Origin: Arthrobacter sp. ES3-54
Lineage (GTDB): Bacteria > Actinomycetota > Actinomycetes > Actinomycetales > Micrococcaceae
Length of the DNA stretch: 64,000 bases
Direction: 5' to 3'
Assembly (NCBI RefSeq): GCF_029504395.1
Contig: NZ_JAQFIF010000001.1
Coordinates: forward strand, 62,001 to 126,000
Part shown: positions 15,227-19,859 of the stretch, one piece after another
Layout of the letters: every line of letters begins with the position of its first letter
Position numbering within the stretch: the first letter of the stretch is position 1
The notes under the pieces: generated by a model
Seen by the model: the letters and a program-made list of their open reading frames with translations, nothing else
Database searches by the model: none
Told to the model about the DNA's origin: nothing
Program-made: the position numbers and the translations under genes

Positions 15227-15288
15227 TCCTGACTCCTACAGGGGTTGGTGTTACCGTACACAGCCTTTACCGCTTCGTCTGAAATCAT
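15223..15288 (-). CDS. possible coupled micro-ORF (21 aa)
   Basis: A 21-codon frame beginning MISDEAVKAVYG whose ATG overlaps the stop of the adenine methyltransferase gene and whose TGA overlaps the start of the 42-aa membrane protein. The exact coupling at both ends is the only support; it may be a leader that carries ribosomes to the next gene. Confidence 0.35.
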   Translation of the reverse strand: MISDEAVKAVYGNTNPCRSQE

Positions 15289-15800
15289 AGCGATTCTCCG
15301 TTTCTTGCGATGGCTGTCATAAGTGGGAAGCCTGAACTTGCGCCCTTGAATACGATCACGGCGGATGGGAAAGGGGCATTGTGTGCGGTCGCGGCACCGC
15401 TGGCCTTACGCTCCTGGTGGGAAGGGTTGTCGAAGTGGAGACGGCTACGGATAAAGCGAACCTCGGATGCTTTCATAACATAGTCGTGCCAATACTTCGT
15501 ATCCGTGCGGGACGGGATGAGGCAGACAACGGTAGCGCCGGACTCCGCTGCCTCATATGCCTTCGCAACCCACTTCCCGATTTCCCTGCCGTAGGGCGGG
15601 TTCATGAATACGGAGCCGACCCACTCTTGGGCCAGCCCGTCATCGTCCTGCGTGTAGAAGTTCGGGCACTTGGCATTAGCTGCGGACGCGCACGGGTCAA
15701 GTGTGAAGTTGAACTCTTCGTCGAGCGTATCGAACAGGTCGAGCGGCGTGGGCCAATCATCCGTGGTCGATGTGAACAAGCCTGCGTTGACAGTTCCCAT
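15285..15800 (-). CDS. phage DNA N-6-adenine methyltransferase (Dam family)
   Basis: 171 aa. It has the short phage DNA N-6-adenine methyltransferase layout: DDWPTPLDLFDTLDEEF at the N-terminus, LDPCASAANAKCPNF, and the catalytic NPPYG in SVFMNPPYGREIGKW. It transfers a methyl group from SAM to adenine, likely protecting phage DNA from restriction. One of three methyltransferases in the prophage. Confidence 0.85.
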   Translation of the reverse strand: MGTVNAGLFTSTTDDWPTPLDLFDTLDEEFNFTLDPCASAANAKCPNFYTQDDDGLAQEWVGSVFMNPPYGREIGKWVAKAYEAAESGATVVCLIPSRTDTKYWHDYVMKASEVRFIRSRLHFDNPSHQERKASGAATAHNAPFPSAVIVFKGASSGFPLMTAIARNGESL

Positions 15801-16799: not shown

Positions 16800-17145
16800 T
16801 GGTGAACATAAAAATAATGCCGGGTTCACCTTTGCCACCGTGACGGTGATCGGGGCCGGTGACATGCTTCCAGTCGTCGTCCACGAGTAGGCCGGCATCA
16901 ACGAACCCGTCAACGCATGCTTTCGTGGTGGTGTTGAGGTTGTTCGGGTCGTACCTGCCGGCGCGATCCTTCCAGACGTGCGCCACGATCCGAACTGGGT
17001 GATCGAACGCCCATCCTGGTGGGACCGCATCGGCCGCTGCTGCCCGCCACGCCTTCACGCGATTCGCTTTCACCATCCGGTGGAGGCGCTGGTTGCTGTT
17101 GATCCACTCATCAGGCTTCGGGACGAAGATTTGCAGGTCGGTCAT
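16789..17145 (-). CDS. RusA-like Holliday junction resolvase
   Basis: 118 aa. The core GRYDPNNLNTTTKACVDGFVDAGLLVDDD is the RusA signature (Asp and Asn in the first part, paired Asp residues in the last). It cuts four-way DNA junctions during phage replication and recombination. ATG at 17145 overlaps the preceding stop and has a GGTGG site. Confidence 0.8.
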   Translation of the reverse strand: MTDLQIFVPKPDEWINSNQRLHRMVKANRVKAWRAAAADAVPPGWAFDHPVRIVAHVWKDRAGRYDPNNLNTTTKACVDGFVDAGLLVDDDWKHVTGPDHRHGGKGEPGIIFMFTKSL

Positions 17146-17558
17146 GCTGCCATCCACCCATCGTGGTTGCCCTCGGCGTCACCCTTGCGAGCCTCGGTGG
17201 CCCTGCGGCGCTCATCGTTGCCCTCACGGCGCCCCTGCTCGAACAGTCGGTCCCATTCCTCCGGGTTGCGCTTCCGCCAGCTCAGGGGATGCTTCACGGG
17301 CTGCGCAGGGCCCTCGATGGCGCGCTGCCCGGCTTCGCGGGACGCCCGGATAGCCAACGCCCGCTTGCGGATCGTCCCAGGATTCGGGAGGTCCTGATCG
17401 TTCGCCCGGTAATGCTCAAGAACCGCCTGCTGAGCCTCGTTGTAAGTCACCGGGGCCAGCGAGTGAGCCCAGATGTCGCGGGCACCCTTCGTGACCTGCA
17501 CCCGAGGGTCGTGCTGGTTGATCCAAGTGATCAGGGCTACTGTCTCGTCAAGCCGCAT
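17142..17558 (-). CDS. conserved actinophage replication-region protein
   Basis: 138 aa. The N-terminal half (LDETVALITWINQHDPRVQV... AWAPVTYNEAQQAV-like helices) matches a small protein usually encoded straight after the phage replication initiator in actinophages; the C-terminal half is very basic and Glu/Arg rich. A helicase-loader role is possible but inferred from position alone. It lies 1 bp after the initiator gene. Confidence 0.6.
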   Translation of the reverse strand: MRLDETVALITWINQHDPRVQVTKGARDIWAHSLAPVTYNEAQQAVLEHYRANDQDLPNPGTIRKRALAIRASREAGQRAIEGPAQPVKHPLSWRKRNPEEWDRLFEQGRREGNDERRRATEARKGDAEGNHDGWMAA

Positions 17559-17559
17559 A

Positions 17560-18426
17560 TCATGCTCCTAGTTCTAGTTGTCCAGCCATTTCGGCCCTTG
17601 TTTCCTGGAGGAGGTCAAAGCCTGCCTGAAGCCTGACCTGCGACCCTGTCTTGGGTTTATTTCCCTGCGCTTTGATCTTTAGAGCCTCGAACTTCTCCCG
17701 CAGCTTCGGCAGGGAAAGAATGTTAGACATCCAGAACTCATCCGTTGTCGCGAACCTGGCGACGAACAGAACCTGCTCCGGGGTGTACCCGTCCTTGTCG
17801 ATCAGGAGCCTCGCCGCTGTCCGCCATGACTCTCCGGGCTTGTGCTTTACGTCGTTGGCTGTGAGTAGTTCGGAGAAGCCTTGAATGACCTGATCAATGT
17901 CGGGCCGCGGGATCTTCGGGGAAGAAGCTTTAGCTTCTTCTTCTCTCTCTCTTTCTCTCTCTCTAGCCATTGCGATTTCGGAAGAATCGCATTGCGGATC
18001 GCTATGCGATTCGTATGCGGTTCGCATGCGATCCGCATTGGGTACCGCATTTTTGTTCCATCTGGCGGCGGCCCCCTTCTTGCCGGCCTCCACGCTGCGC
18101 TTCACGCCCTCGGATGTGCGGTTGTGTTCGGTGTAGTCGTGGACGTAGACCTTGCCTTCTTCGACCTCGGGGCAGAACTGGCATTCGTGGCCTGGGATGT
18201 GCCACAGCCCCTTGTCGATGAGGAGCCTTGTATCAGCCGCTGAGCCGCCTACTTTGCGCTGCATGGGGCCTGATGCGATAACCCCGTCCGTGAGGTGCTG
18301 GGCGCAGTACAGGACCGACGCTGCGTGCATCAGGACCGCAGTAGGGGACTCGTCAAGAACATCCATGATCTTCGGGTTGTCTAGGTAGCCGACGTCAAAC
18401 TGGGCGAATGCTCTCTTGTCAGCCAT
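17560..18426 (-). CDS. phage replication initiator / replisome organiser
   Basis: 288 aa. The N-terminal winged-helix-like part (FAQFDVGYLDNPKIMDVLDE... YVHDYTEHNRTSEGVKR) is typical of DnaD/gp-O-like initiators of Gram-positive phages. A low-complexity Arg-Glu linker (RERERERE, about residue 155) joins a C-terminal helical domain. The DNA encoding residues about 125-165 carries iteron-like repeats and a polypurine tract, so the origin probably lies inside the gene. The gene follows operator site 3. Confidence 0.7.
   Translation of the reverse strand: MADKRAFAQFDVGYLDNPKIMDVLDESPTAVLMHAASVLYCAQHLTDGVIASGPMQRKVGGSAADTRLLIDKGLWHIPGHECQFCPEVEEGKVYVHDYTEHNRTSEGVKRSVEAGKKGAAARWNKNAVPNADRMRTAYESHSDPQCDSSEIAMAREREREREEEAKASSPKIPRPDIDQVIQGFSELLTANDVKHKPGESWRTAARLLIDKDGYTPEQVLFVARFATTDEFWMSNILSLPKLREKFEALKIKAQGNKPKTGSQVRLQAGFDLLQETRAEMAGQLELGA
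17930..18047. other. candidate replication origin with iterons
   Basis: Head-to-tail repeats of about 11 bp: TATGCGATTCG at 18003, TATGCGGTTCG at 18014 and CATGCGATCCG at 18025 are directly abutting. Looser copies start at 17968, 17990 and 18036. They are flanked by a polypyrimidine (CT-rich) tract at 17930-17967. An initiator gene containing its own iterons plus a strand-biased tract is the lambda-O arrangement. Also explained in part by coding for Arg-Glu repeats, but codon choice in the iterons is not. Confidence 0.55.
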
Positions 18427-18465: not shown

Positions 18466-19530
18466 TCATGCCGCAGCCCTTCCCTGATGTTCGAATGCGG
18501 CGAGCATGTCTGTCAGCGCCGCGATGGCCTGCTGGGGTACGACTCCGTTTCCGCAGGCTTTGATCTGTTCCTGCCAGGAGATACCAATTGCCGGATCAGT
18601 AACCCATCCATCAGGCAGGCCCATCATCCACTCGGTGAAGCGGGGGCTTAGGCGGTGTCCACCGTTGCGTCCTGTGGGTTCGGTAGGGGCAGGGGCACGT
18701 CTTCCCATAACTGCTTCGTGGCGGGCGATGGCTTCGGCGTAGACGTCCCAGTTGGTAGAAGTGAGATCACTGTCCGCAGGTTGTCCCCGCCAGTCTTGTT
18801 CGGCCCGTTCCCCGGCCCCGTAGTTTCCGATGTCGTTACGGTCGGCAGTAGTCGCGGCTGATTCAGGTCGTATAGGTCGCGTATCTGATTCGTTAGGAAT
18901 GGCTGCCCGGTTTGCGCCCGCTTCGCGGATCCCTGCTGGAAGGTCGCCTTTGCGCCTTCGGAGGCGACGGGGGTGAGCAGCCAGGACGAAGACGCGGTAT
19001 CGAGGGTGGCAGGCTCCCACGTCGGCAGCTCGTAGGCCACGCCATTCCGCATCGAACCCGAGGTCGGCCAGACTTCCAAGTAGACGCCCAAGTGCTCGCA
19101 GAACAACCCTTCCGTCTCCGGTGTCTCCCATACATCCCGGGCACTGTTCCAGATCGCTGTCGGCCGTGGCACTATATGCCCCCCTTACGTTTTCCCAGAC
19201 GACGTAGTCCGGTTGGATGATTTCGACGGCGCGGAGGAATTCCACGGCGAGGTTGGAGCGGCTGCCTTCGGTCATGCCGCGGCGCCGCCCCGATGTGGAG
19301 AGGTCCTGGCATGGGGTGCCTCCTGCGAGGATCTCGACTGGCTCGACCGCTGCCCAGTCGATTTTTGTCATGTCGCCGTGGTTGGGGATGCCCGGGTAGT
19401 TGTGGGCGAGGATCCTAGATGGGGCTTCTTCGAACTCTGAGAACCAAGCAGTACGAGAGCCGAAGACTTGCTCCACCGCTTTGCCGAGCCCGTTGTATCC
19501 GGCGCAGACTTCTGCGCTCCGGATCCTCAC
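18466..19530 (-). CDS. DNA cytosine-5 methyltransferase
   Basis: 354 aa. C5-methyltransferase motifs in order: SAEVCAGYNGLGKAVEQVFG (motif I), EILAGGTPCQDLSTSGRRRG (motif IV with the catalytic Cys), VVWENVRGAY (motif VI), ACHPRYRVF (motif VIII-like), ACGNGVVPQQA (motif X). A target-recognition region lies between about 200 and 310. GTG at 19530 overlaps the previous stop. Likely protects phage DNA; no cognate restriction gene is nearby. Confidence 0.85.
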   Translation of the reverse strand: MRIRSAEVCAGYNGLGKAVEQVFGSRTAWFSEFEEAPSRILAHNYPGIPNHGDMTKIDWAAVEPVEILAGGTPCQDLSTSGRRRGMTEGSRSNLAVEFLRAVEIIQPDYVVWENVRGAYSATADSDLEQCPGCMGDTGDGRVVLRALGRLLGSLADLGFDAEWRGLRAADVGACHPRYRVFVLAAHPRRLRRRKGDLPAGIREAGANRAAIPNESDTRPIRPESAATTADRNDIGNYGAGERAEQDWRGQPADSDLTSTNWDVYAEAIARHEAVMGRRAPAPTEPTGRNGGHRLSPRFTEWMMGLPDGWVTDPAIGISWQEQIKACGNGVVPQQAIAALTDMLAAFEHQGRAAA

Positions 19531-19859
19531 GCCGCCGCCCAGTATTCTTCGCCGATGAGGCGGTGGTACACGTCGAGGCGTCCCCACTTTTGCAGGCGTG
19601 TGCGGAGGGAGCCTTCGCGGCCTGCGTAGCCAATGGCTTTGAGGATGTAGCCTGTGCCCTGGTTGAGACTGAGCATCCATTCAATCTCGGCGATGACCTC
19701 GGCGGCTGTGGGCAGCGTGGGGGCTGTCTTGGTGTATTTGCGGCAGCGGGCTGTCCAGGCTTCTTTGCAGGGCTGGCACCGTTCCTCTACACGTTTGGTG
19801 TGGGCCCGGTAGCCGTTCTCGGTGCCGCAGATGTCGCGGTAAACGGTGGGGTTCTTCAT
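19527..19859 (-). CDS. phage protein with CxxC and HTH-like helices (110 aa)
   Basis: 110 aa. The N-terminus has CGTENGYRAHTKRVEERCQPC (three Cys, probable zinc site). The C-terminal helices (EVIAEIEWMLSLNQGTGYIL; REGSLRTRLQKWGR) look like a small helix-turn-helix. Such proteins are frequent in actinophage early operons; function unknown. Overlaps neighbours by ATGA and GTGA. Confidence 0.6.
   Translation of the reverse strand: MKNPTVYRDICGTENGYRAHTKRVEERCQPCKEAWTARCRKYTKTAPTLPTAAEVIAEIEWMLSLNQGTGYILKAIGYAGREGSLRTRLQKWGRLDVYHRLIGEEYWAAA

Follow-up and report, generated by a model that had tools for sequence, protein, structure and literature searches.

Replication origins that lie inside the gene for their own initiator are an already known arrangement, found in phage lambda and in some plasmids. 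As described in PMC5043065, ori-lambda maps within O, and a neighbouring A+T-rich region is almost purely purine on one strand; the lambda origin contains four 19-bp repeats, with six being present in Stx phages (PMC5043065, PMC7466680). The account of the initiator pSK41 Rep in PMC5703833 places the Rep boxes centrally within rep, between the coding sequences of an N-domain with a winged-helix fold and a C-domain that resembles DnaD in structure, describes the linker of Rep as dispensable, and includes a chimera, pPR9, in which N-domain and origin region were replaced together. For the Bacillus phage SPP1, the description in PMC5615212 names G38P as origin binder, G39P as helicase loader and G40P as helicase. 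DnaD of Bacillus subtilis is described as preferring one strand of the origin, and the DRE as a TnnT ssDNA motif in oriC (PMC10201434). For mycobacterial prophages, an origin just upstream of or within repA is suggested in PMC7157519. Among the papers listed by our literature search we found no description of the origin type considered here in actinobacterial phages, a weak negative as most subscription journals lay outside the search.

We analyzed a 64,000-nt stretch of DNA (the window) from the actinobacterium Arthrobacter sp. ES3-54, which contains a prophage with a 288-residue initiator ORF (Table 1). We consider it likely that positions 17921-18049, embedded in the initiator gene, constitute the replication origin of this prophage. 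The first-pass annotation of this DNA had proposed a layout of the lambda O type, a proposal that appears well supported by comparison with relatives and with known in-gene origins. The initiator gene is accompanied by genes for SSB-like, YqaJ-type exonuclease, RusA-like and DNA methyltransferase proteins. An initiator gene identical to that of the window is found in a 48-kb viral contig, IMGVR_UViG_2932078316, which is probably the same prophage, and which was for this reason left out of the counts; the coordinates of this contig would place the end of the prophage at about 30352 in the window. Two methyltransferase genes lie close to the initiator gene on the minus strand, a Dam-type gene at 15285-15800 and a C5-cytosine methyltransferase gene at 18466-19680, the latter directly upstream of the initiator gene. 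No tRNA was found in the window by ARAGORN.

Table 1. Features of the candidate origin and its genes, with position in the window, strand, and basis or remarks.
Initiator gene, 288 aa	17560-18426	minus	N-domain ~10-100, linker ~103-175, C-domain ~175-260
Iteron array, six 11-bp units TGCGAWTCGCA	17981-18049		pattern and shuffles
Purine tract, 31 nt, presumed unwinding element	17934-17964	minus (coding); CT on plus	tract scan, Arg codons, stability
Perfect inverted repeat GAAGAAGCT-TT-AGCTTCTTC	17921-17940		sequence; overlaps far end of tract
Putative helicase loader gene, 138 aa, directly downstream of initiator	17142-17558	minus	PHROG 2289

The repeat array is located approximately 380-450 bp into the initiator coding sequence, in the DNA that encodes the linker, and comparison of its coordinates with the structure model places the repeats between the two domains of the protein. 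Units within three mismatches of TGCGAWTCGCA start at 17981, 17993, 18005, 18016, 18027 and 18039 (3, 2, 1, 1, 1 and 3 mismatches, respectively), giving spacings of 12, 12, 11, 11 and 12 bp. Tandem Repeats Finder independently reported a repeat of period 11 with 4.5 copies at 17987-18038. The three abutting 11-mers noticed in the first pass are present on the plus strand at 18003-18013, 18014-18024 and 18025-18035, with looser copies on each side, and their placement inside the initiator coding sequence is correct; the identification of the array as iterons was retained, whereas its description as three direct 11-mers gave way to one of six near-palindromic units. Significance was assessed with shuffles that keep the protein and the codon use of the initiator gene. 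The 7-mer repeat clustering was 15, compared to a maximum of 12 in 200 synonymous-codon shuffles, and the lag-11/12 self-similarity of the array was equalled in 7 of 5000 protein-preserving shuffles. A generic count of palindromic 11-mers was not significant (535/5000 shuffles), and single units with no more than one mismatch occurred in the window at about the expected frequency (47, compared to an expected mean of 42.7). A strict pattern of two tandem units had no match in the 4.77-Mb genome of the strain outside of the array. It is the clustering of the units, not their number, that is unusual. That coding does not explain the iterons, as had been claimed, is borne out by the 11-12 bp period, which crosses reading frames, and by the rarity with which shuffles equal the periodicity.

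Synonymous change was examined using as partners two loci, L001 and L002, that encode proteins 97% and 96% identical to that of the window. Within codons 126-172, third positions differed from the window at 2 of 47 codons in L001 and at 1 of 47 in L002. In the remaining 241 codons the differences numbered 40 and 45, respectively, so that the Fisher p-values of the contrast were 0.017 for L001 and 0.0015 for L002. When L001 and L002 were compared with each other, the corresponding values were 1/47 and 43/241. The L001 contrast gave p=0.064 when made against the N-terminal side alone. These data indicate that synonymous change is depleted in the linker segment, which is under constraint beyond coding.

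Just 3' of the iterons, every nucleotide of the tract is a purine on the coding strand; this is the CT tract of the plus strand that had been noted as adjoining the iterons. The inverted repeat that it overlaps has arms of 9 bp and a loop of 2 nt, and is also found in the related loci L152 and L158 but is missing from L153. The least stable 30- and 40-bp segments of the initiator gene are located on the tract, and the least stable 60-bp segment overlaps it. The 40-bp segment ranks 49th of 30311, a rank taken only against segments of positions 1-30352, and such low stability is shared: the 400 least stable 40-bp segments of this region fall into 27 clusters, and the tract segment is only one of these. 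The A+T content of the tract is only moderate (18/31).

The tract had been attributed to the Arg-Glu linker that it encodes. We examined Arg codon choice in 18 genes, L001 and L002 being left out; for each, the 10-residue segment with the highest R/E/K content was selected on the basis of amino acids alone. Arg was encoded by AGA or AGG at 51 of 56 positions in the charged segment, compared to 50 of 303 elsewhere; for Rousseau and Howe the segment selected differs from the tract. On the basis of this skew across 18 genes, the reading of the CT tract as a mere by-product of coding was rejected. The earlier explanation thus fails across the relatives, with the contrast being weak in the window gene considered alone (4/4 in the segment vs 7/15 elsewhere). 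The length of the window tract was reached in 24 of 200 codon shuffles and is not exceptional, because AGA and AGG are common elsewhere in this gene. For 13 of the 16 window-like genes, no more than 7 of 200 shuffles gave a tract as long as the observed one; weaker results were obtained, besides the window, for L155 (16/200) and L158 (13/200), and the tracts of Rousseau (164/200) and Howe (125/200) fail the test. The initiators of LBR48, ClubL and Austintatious, which have other N-domains, contain long purine runs that were reached in 0 of 200 shuffles each. The corresponding stretch reads GAGACAGAGACA followed by TATATA (ETET) in Rousseau and Howe, is GGGGAACAG- or GGGAACAG-like in ClubL and Austintatious, and reads AAGGAAAGGAAAGTAAAGG in LBR48; peptides encoded by the purine-rich stretches of other members are ETETET, EQGNRGTG and KERKVKE. 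The purine-rich stretch persists while the peptide that it encodes varies, and the tract is probably a part of the origin rather than mere coding. Tandem purine-rich linker arrays of GGGGAACAG, GGGAACAG or GGGGAGCAG are also present in L022 (Gordonia phage ClubL, 1865-2854), L021 (Austintatious, 2003-2881) and L010, loci whose N-domain differs from that of the window; none of 200 codon shuffles reached the array in any of the three.

Profile searches place the initiator in families of phage replication initiators. It is matched by PHROG 391 'replication initiation O-like' over residues 103-263 (E=4e-17), PHROG 4880 'replisome organizer' (E=2.9e-15), PHROG 3926, which is counted among phage initiator families (E=7.1e-14), and PHROG 2514 'DnaD-like helicase loader' over residues 145-259 (E=3.1e-13), the DnaD-like character of the C-domain being assigned by profile only; the top match, PHROG 22834 (E=6.5e-27), has no named function. 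No Pfam family matched the 288-residue protein at E<=0.1, NCBIfam gave no match at E<=1 for two window proteins including the initiator, phmmer gave only two irrelevant matches (E 0.46 and 1.3), and a Foldseek search of the PDB with the initiator model was negative at E<=0.001. An AlphaFold2 model built from 17 sequences (mean pLDDT 67, pTM 0.37) predicts a mostly disordered linker between an ordered N-domain (pLDDT mostly 80-93) and a helical C-domain (mostly 73-83), with the linker segments 102-109, 126-154 and 166-173 falling below pLDDT 50. Residues 10-110 of the model gave winged-helix matches, all with Z under 7. Among these were 4pta, 4pt7 and 5kbj (titles 'MDR initiator', 'initiator' and 'Rep-DNA complex'), which we take to be pSK41-type initiators, and whose matches span 82 residues at Z 5.8-6.1, on a par with those of unrelated winged helices.

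The locus resembles lambda O and ori-lambda in having repeats within the initiator gene followed by a strand-asymmetric purine/pyrimidine region, which in lambda is described as opening (PMC5043065, PMC7466680), and the match to PHROG 391 extends this likeness to the protein. It differs in that the repeats described for lambda are 19 bp long, compared to units of 11 bp here, spaced by roughly one helical turn, in that the lambda region is described as A+T-rich, compared to a GA tract here, and in that no homologue of lambda P was found among ten window proteins scanned. With pSK41 Rep, as that protein is described, the initiator shares a winged-helix-like N-domain, putative origin DNA that encodes a linker, and a DnaD-like C-domain. 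Membership in the RepA_N plasmid initiators was considered and rejected on the basis of the Pfam search, because no RepA_N sequence domain was found; the initiator also belongs to a phage rather than a plasmid, and many other winged helices match the fold of its N-domain as well as RepA_N initiators do.

The gene order is similar to that of the SPP1 module, with a presumed origin binder followed by a small putative loader gene and then by a RusA-like resolvase gene, although loader similarity is weak here and no phage helicase gene was found among the proteins scanned. The 138-residue downstream protein matches PHROG 2289 'helicase loader' weakly (E=0.066), and its counterpart in L152 (55% identical) does so at E=2.8e-4; the best PHROG matches of the 138-residue protein are families without known function, and a profile search of the PDB with this protein gave no relative. 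None of ten window proteins scanned with Pfam was a DnaB helicase, and for this reason we presume that the host provides a DnaB-type helicase. The match of the C-domain to PHROG 2514 is a likeness to DnaD of Bacillus subtilis, whose described strand preference allows the speculation, by analogy, that the pyrimidine strand could have a role here, the CT strand being an equivalent of the DRE.

To judge how far the layout extends, relatives were collected by an N-domain alignment search, and 80 of the 115 viral candidates that it gave were retained; linkers were inspected in a part of these 80, and in phage records and genome loci. Window-like relatives, with N-domains 31-79% identical, have ATGC-type half-sites ahead of a purine tract. 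In 15 of 19 genes, the 110 nt before the tract contained more ATGC/GCAT half-sites than shuffles did (p<=0.05), the motif having been picked by eye on earlier sequences and the p-values being optimistic because the relatives share ancestry. By this one half-site motif, then, iterons are kept along with the protein in those 15 genes, the first-pass annotation having named their loss from such relatives as a sign against its proposal. In the genes of L153, L156, L158 and L161 the excess was not significant at p<=0.05, and Howe also fails the half-site test. In an unbiased test, only 7 of the 16 window-like genes had a linker 7-mer peak at or below 1/60 shuffles.

A later set of 20 loci consisted of L229 and 19 of 22 places matched by an N-domain profile, our own gene and two loci already included having been dropped. 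The full layout was found only in L229, the closest of the 20 (N-domain 46% identical; half-sites 0/500, purine tract 0/200, 7-mer peak 0/60). L231 has half-sites (3/500) and repeats but an unexceptional tract (77/200), L248 has borderline half-sites (27/500, and 48/1000 in another run), and in the remaining 17 the half-sites were above p 0.05. A purine tract at no more than 10/200 shuffles was present in L229, L234 and L250, the latter two being without significant half-sites before it. A 7-mer repeat peak at no more than 1/60 shuffles was found in 12 of the 20, indicating that repeats are commoner in the wider family than either the half-site motif or the purine tract. The window half-site motif is absent from most of the more distant relatives, and this narrows the full layout to closer ones. 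In the linker of L241, CAACGGACGTT-type units recur ahead of AGATATAGATATAGATAATATTAATT (7-mer peak 0/60 shuffles), an array that on its sequence reads as an A+T-rich version of the window-type layout.

Relatives are sparse in genomes: those found with the full protein are present in 12 of 295 genomes of the family, and those found with the N-domain profile in 19 of 396 genomes of the order, our own being included in both counts. A first scan of genome contigs, with the full protein as query, gave no relative among 31 stretches that fitted the pattern; a second, with query A4, gave one, L229, among 43 stretches. Scanning viral contigs for two neighbouring units returned at least 120 stretches, the pattern being too loose, and 24 of 129 scored matches had three or more units. 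In the viral contig L080, up to seven TGCGGATCGCA-like units occur in about 200 nt (2753-2907) with a purine-rich stretch nearby, and are located in open frames 194 and 467 codons long. Linkers of the Streptomyces (Raleigh) group have GCGAATCG-type repeats and are without a purine tract. In those read among L023 and L166-L188, the GCGAATCG iterons are followed in several by inverted repeats of the GTCAC...GTGAC type, a GTACCTCCTTCGGAGGTAC-kind hairpin and runs rich in C, all within coding DNA. These linkers possibly represent a different design of in-gene origin.

Iteron type, as classified by eye, follows the type of N-domain, with GCGGATCGCAT-type units in the window, L152 and L153, and TGCATTGCAA-type units in L154-L158. 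The window and L153 are 79% identical in their N-domains and 75% identical in linker DNA, with no C-domain match at E<=0.01. Similarly, L155 and L157 have N-domains that are 81% identical and the same iteron type, with C-domains that lack detectable similarity. The point at which the C-domains switch is just after the purine tract. Between the window and L158, the tract and inverted repeat are 85% identical over 60 nt, compared to 53% for linker/iteron DNA. We also examined the next gene in seven loci with a C-domain unlike that of the window (L153, L156, L160, L165 and L005, and by eye L161 and L163). The next gene matches a DnaB Pfam model in 6 of the 7, with AAA_25 being the sole match among helicase-like models in L165; in the window, L001, L002 and L152 a gene of 125-138 aa follows the initiator instead. 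The less expected part of these results is that the purine tract looks like both a conserved DNA element and the joint of C-domain exchange. We tentatively suggest, as a possibility about which we remain doubtful, that in this actinobacterial phage group the N-domain, iterons and GA-type purine tract form one exchangeable cassette, in which the tract would be the common joint and docking element for three or more types of C-domain that are unrelated to one another. Under this tentative model, the specificity of the origin and the choice of helicase would evolve separately, with their switch point at the tract.

In the mechanism that we propose, the winged-helix N-domain would bind the six 11-bp units, approximately one per helical turn, and the resulting complex would strain the DNA such that the adjacent purine/pyrimidine tract opens. 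The DnaD-like C-domain, probably together with the small downstream protein as loader, would then put a DnaB-type helicase supplied by the host on the exposed strand. A potential concern is whether the repeats are instead operator sites through which the initiator blocks its own transcription for autoregulation or copy control, the origin being elsewhere. Near-palindromic units would suit a dimeric repressor, and iterons in plasmids can act both as origin and as operator. However, the array begins some 380 bp into the coding sequence and extends to about 450 bp, the repeats precede a purine tract in window-like relatives, with the window tract being of low stability, and the architecture is the same as that of known in-gene origins, all of which make an operator improbable.

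It is also conceivable that the segment is low-complexity linker coding, with protein selection and slippage having produced repeats and tract without any function of the DNA. A linker predicted to be mostly disordered, the recurrence of a charged peptide, and the failure of the window tract alone to beat codon shuffles are consistent with this, but we consider it quite improbable given that the period of 11-12 bp crosses reading frames, that third positions are depleted of change, that Arg codons in the charged segment are skewed to AGA/AGG, that peptides vary while the purine-rich stretch persists, and that half-sites exceed protein-keeping shuffles in 15/19 genes. The switch of C-domains after the tract, and the high identity of tract and inverted repeat between the window and L158 (85% over 60 nt, with 53% for linker/iteron DNA), raise the question of whether the segment is mainly a recombination joint for C-domain exchange, its repeats being kept by exchange rather than by origin function. 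This would leave unexplained both the iterons that follow the N-domain type and the purine runs that recur with other N-domains in LBR48, ClubL and Austintatious, and a recombination joint may also arise as a side effect of an origin; we hold it to be very improbable.

An origin within the initiator gene would provide a sequence rule for finding origins in this actinobacterial phage group, in which initiators frequently carry the annotation 'hypothetical': a half-site cluster and then a purine tract are to be sought in the linker part of the initiator gene. What appears to be a coding feature, the Arg/Glu linker, is suggested to be imposed by the DNA. The natural swaps of C-domains offer a way to study how one kind of origin may feed different helicase-loading systems.
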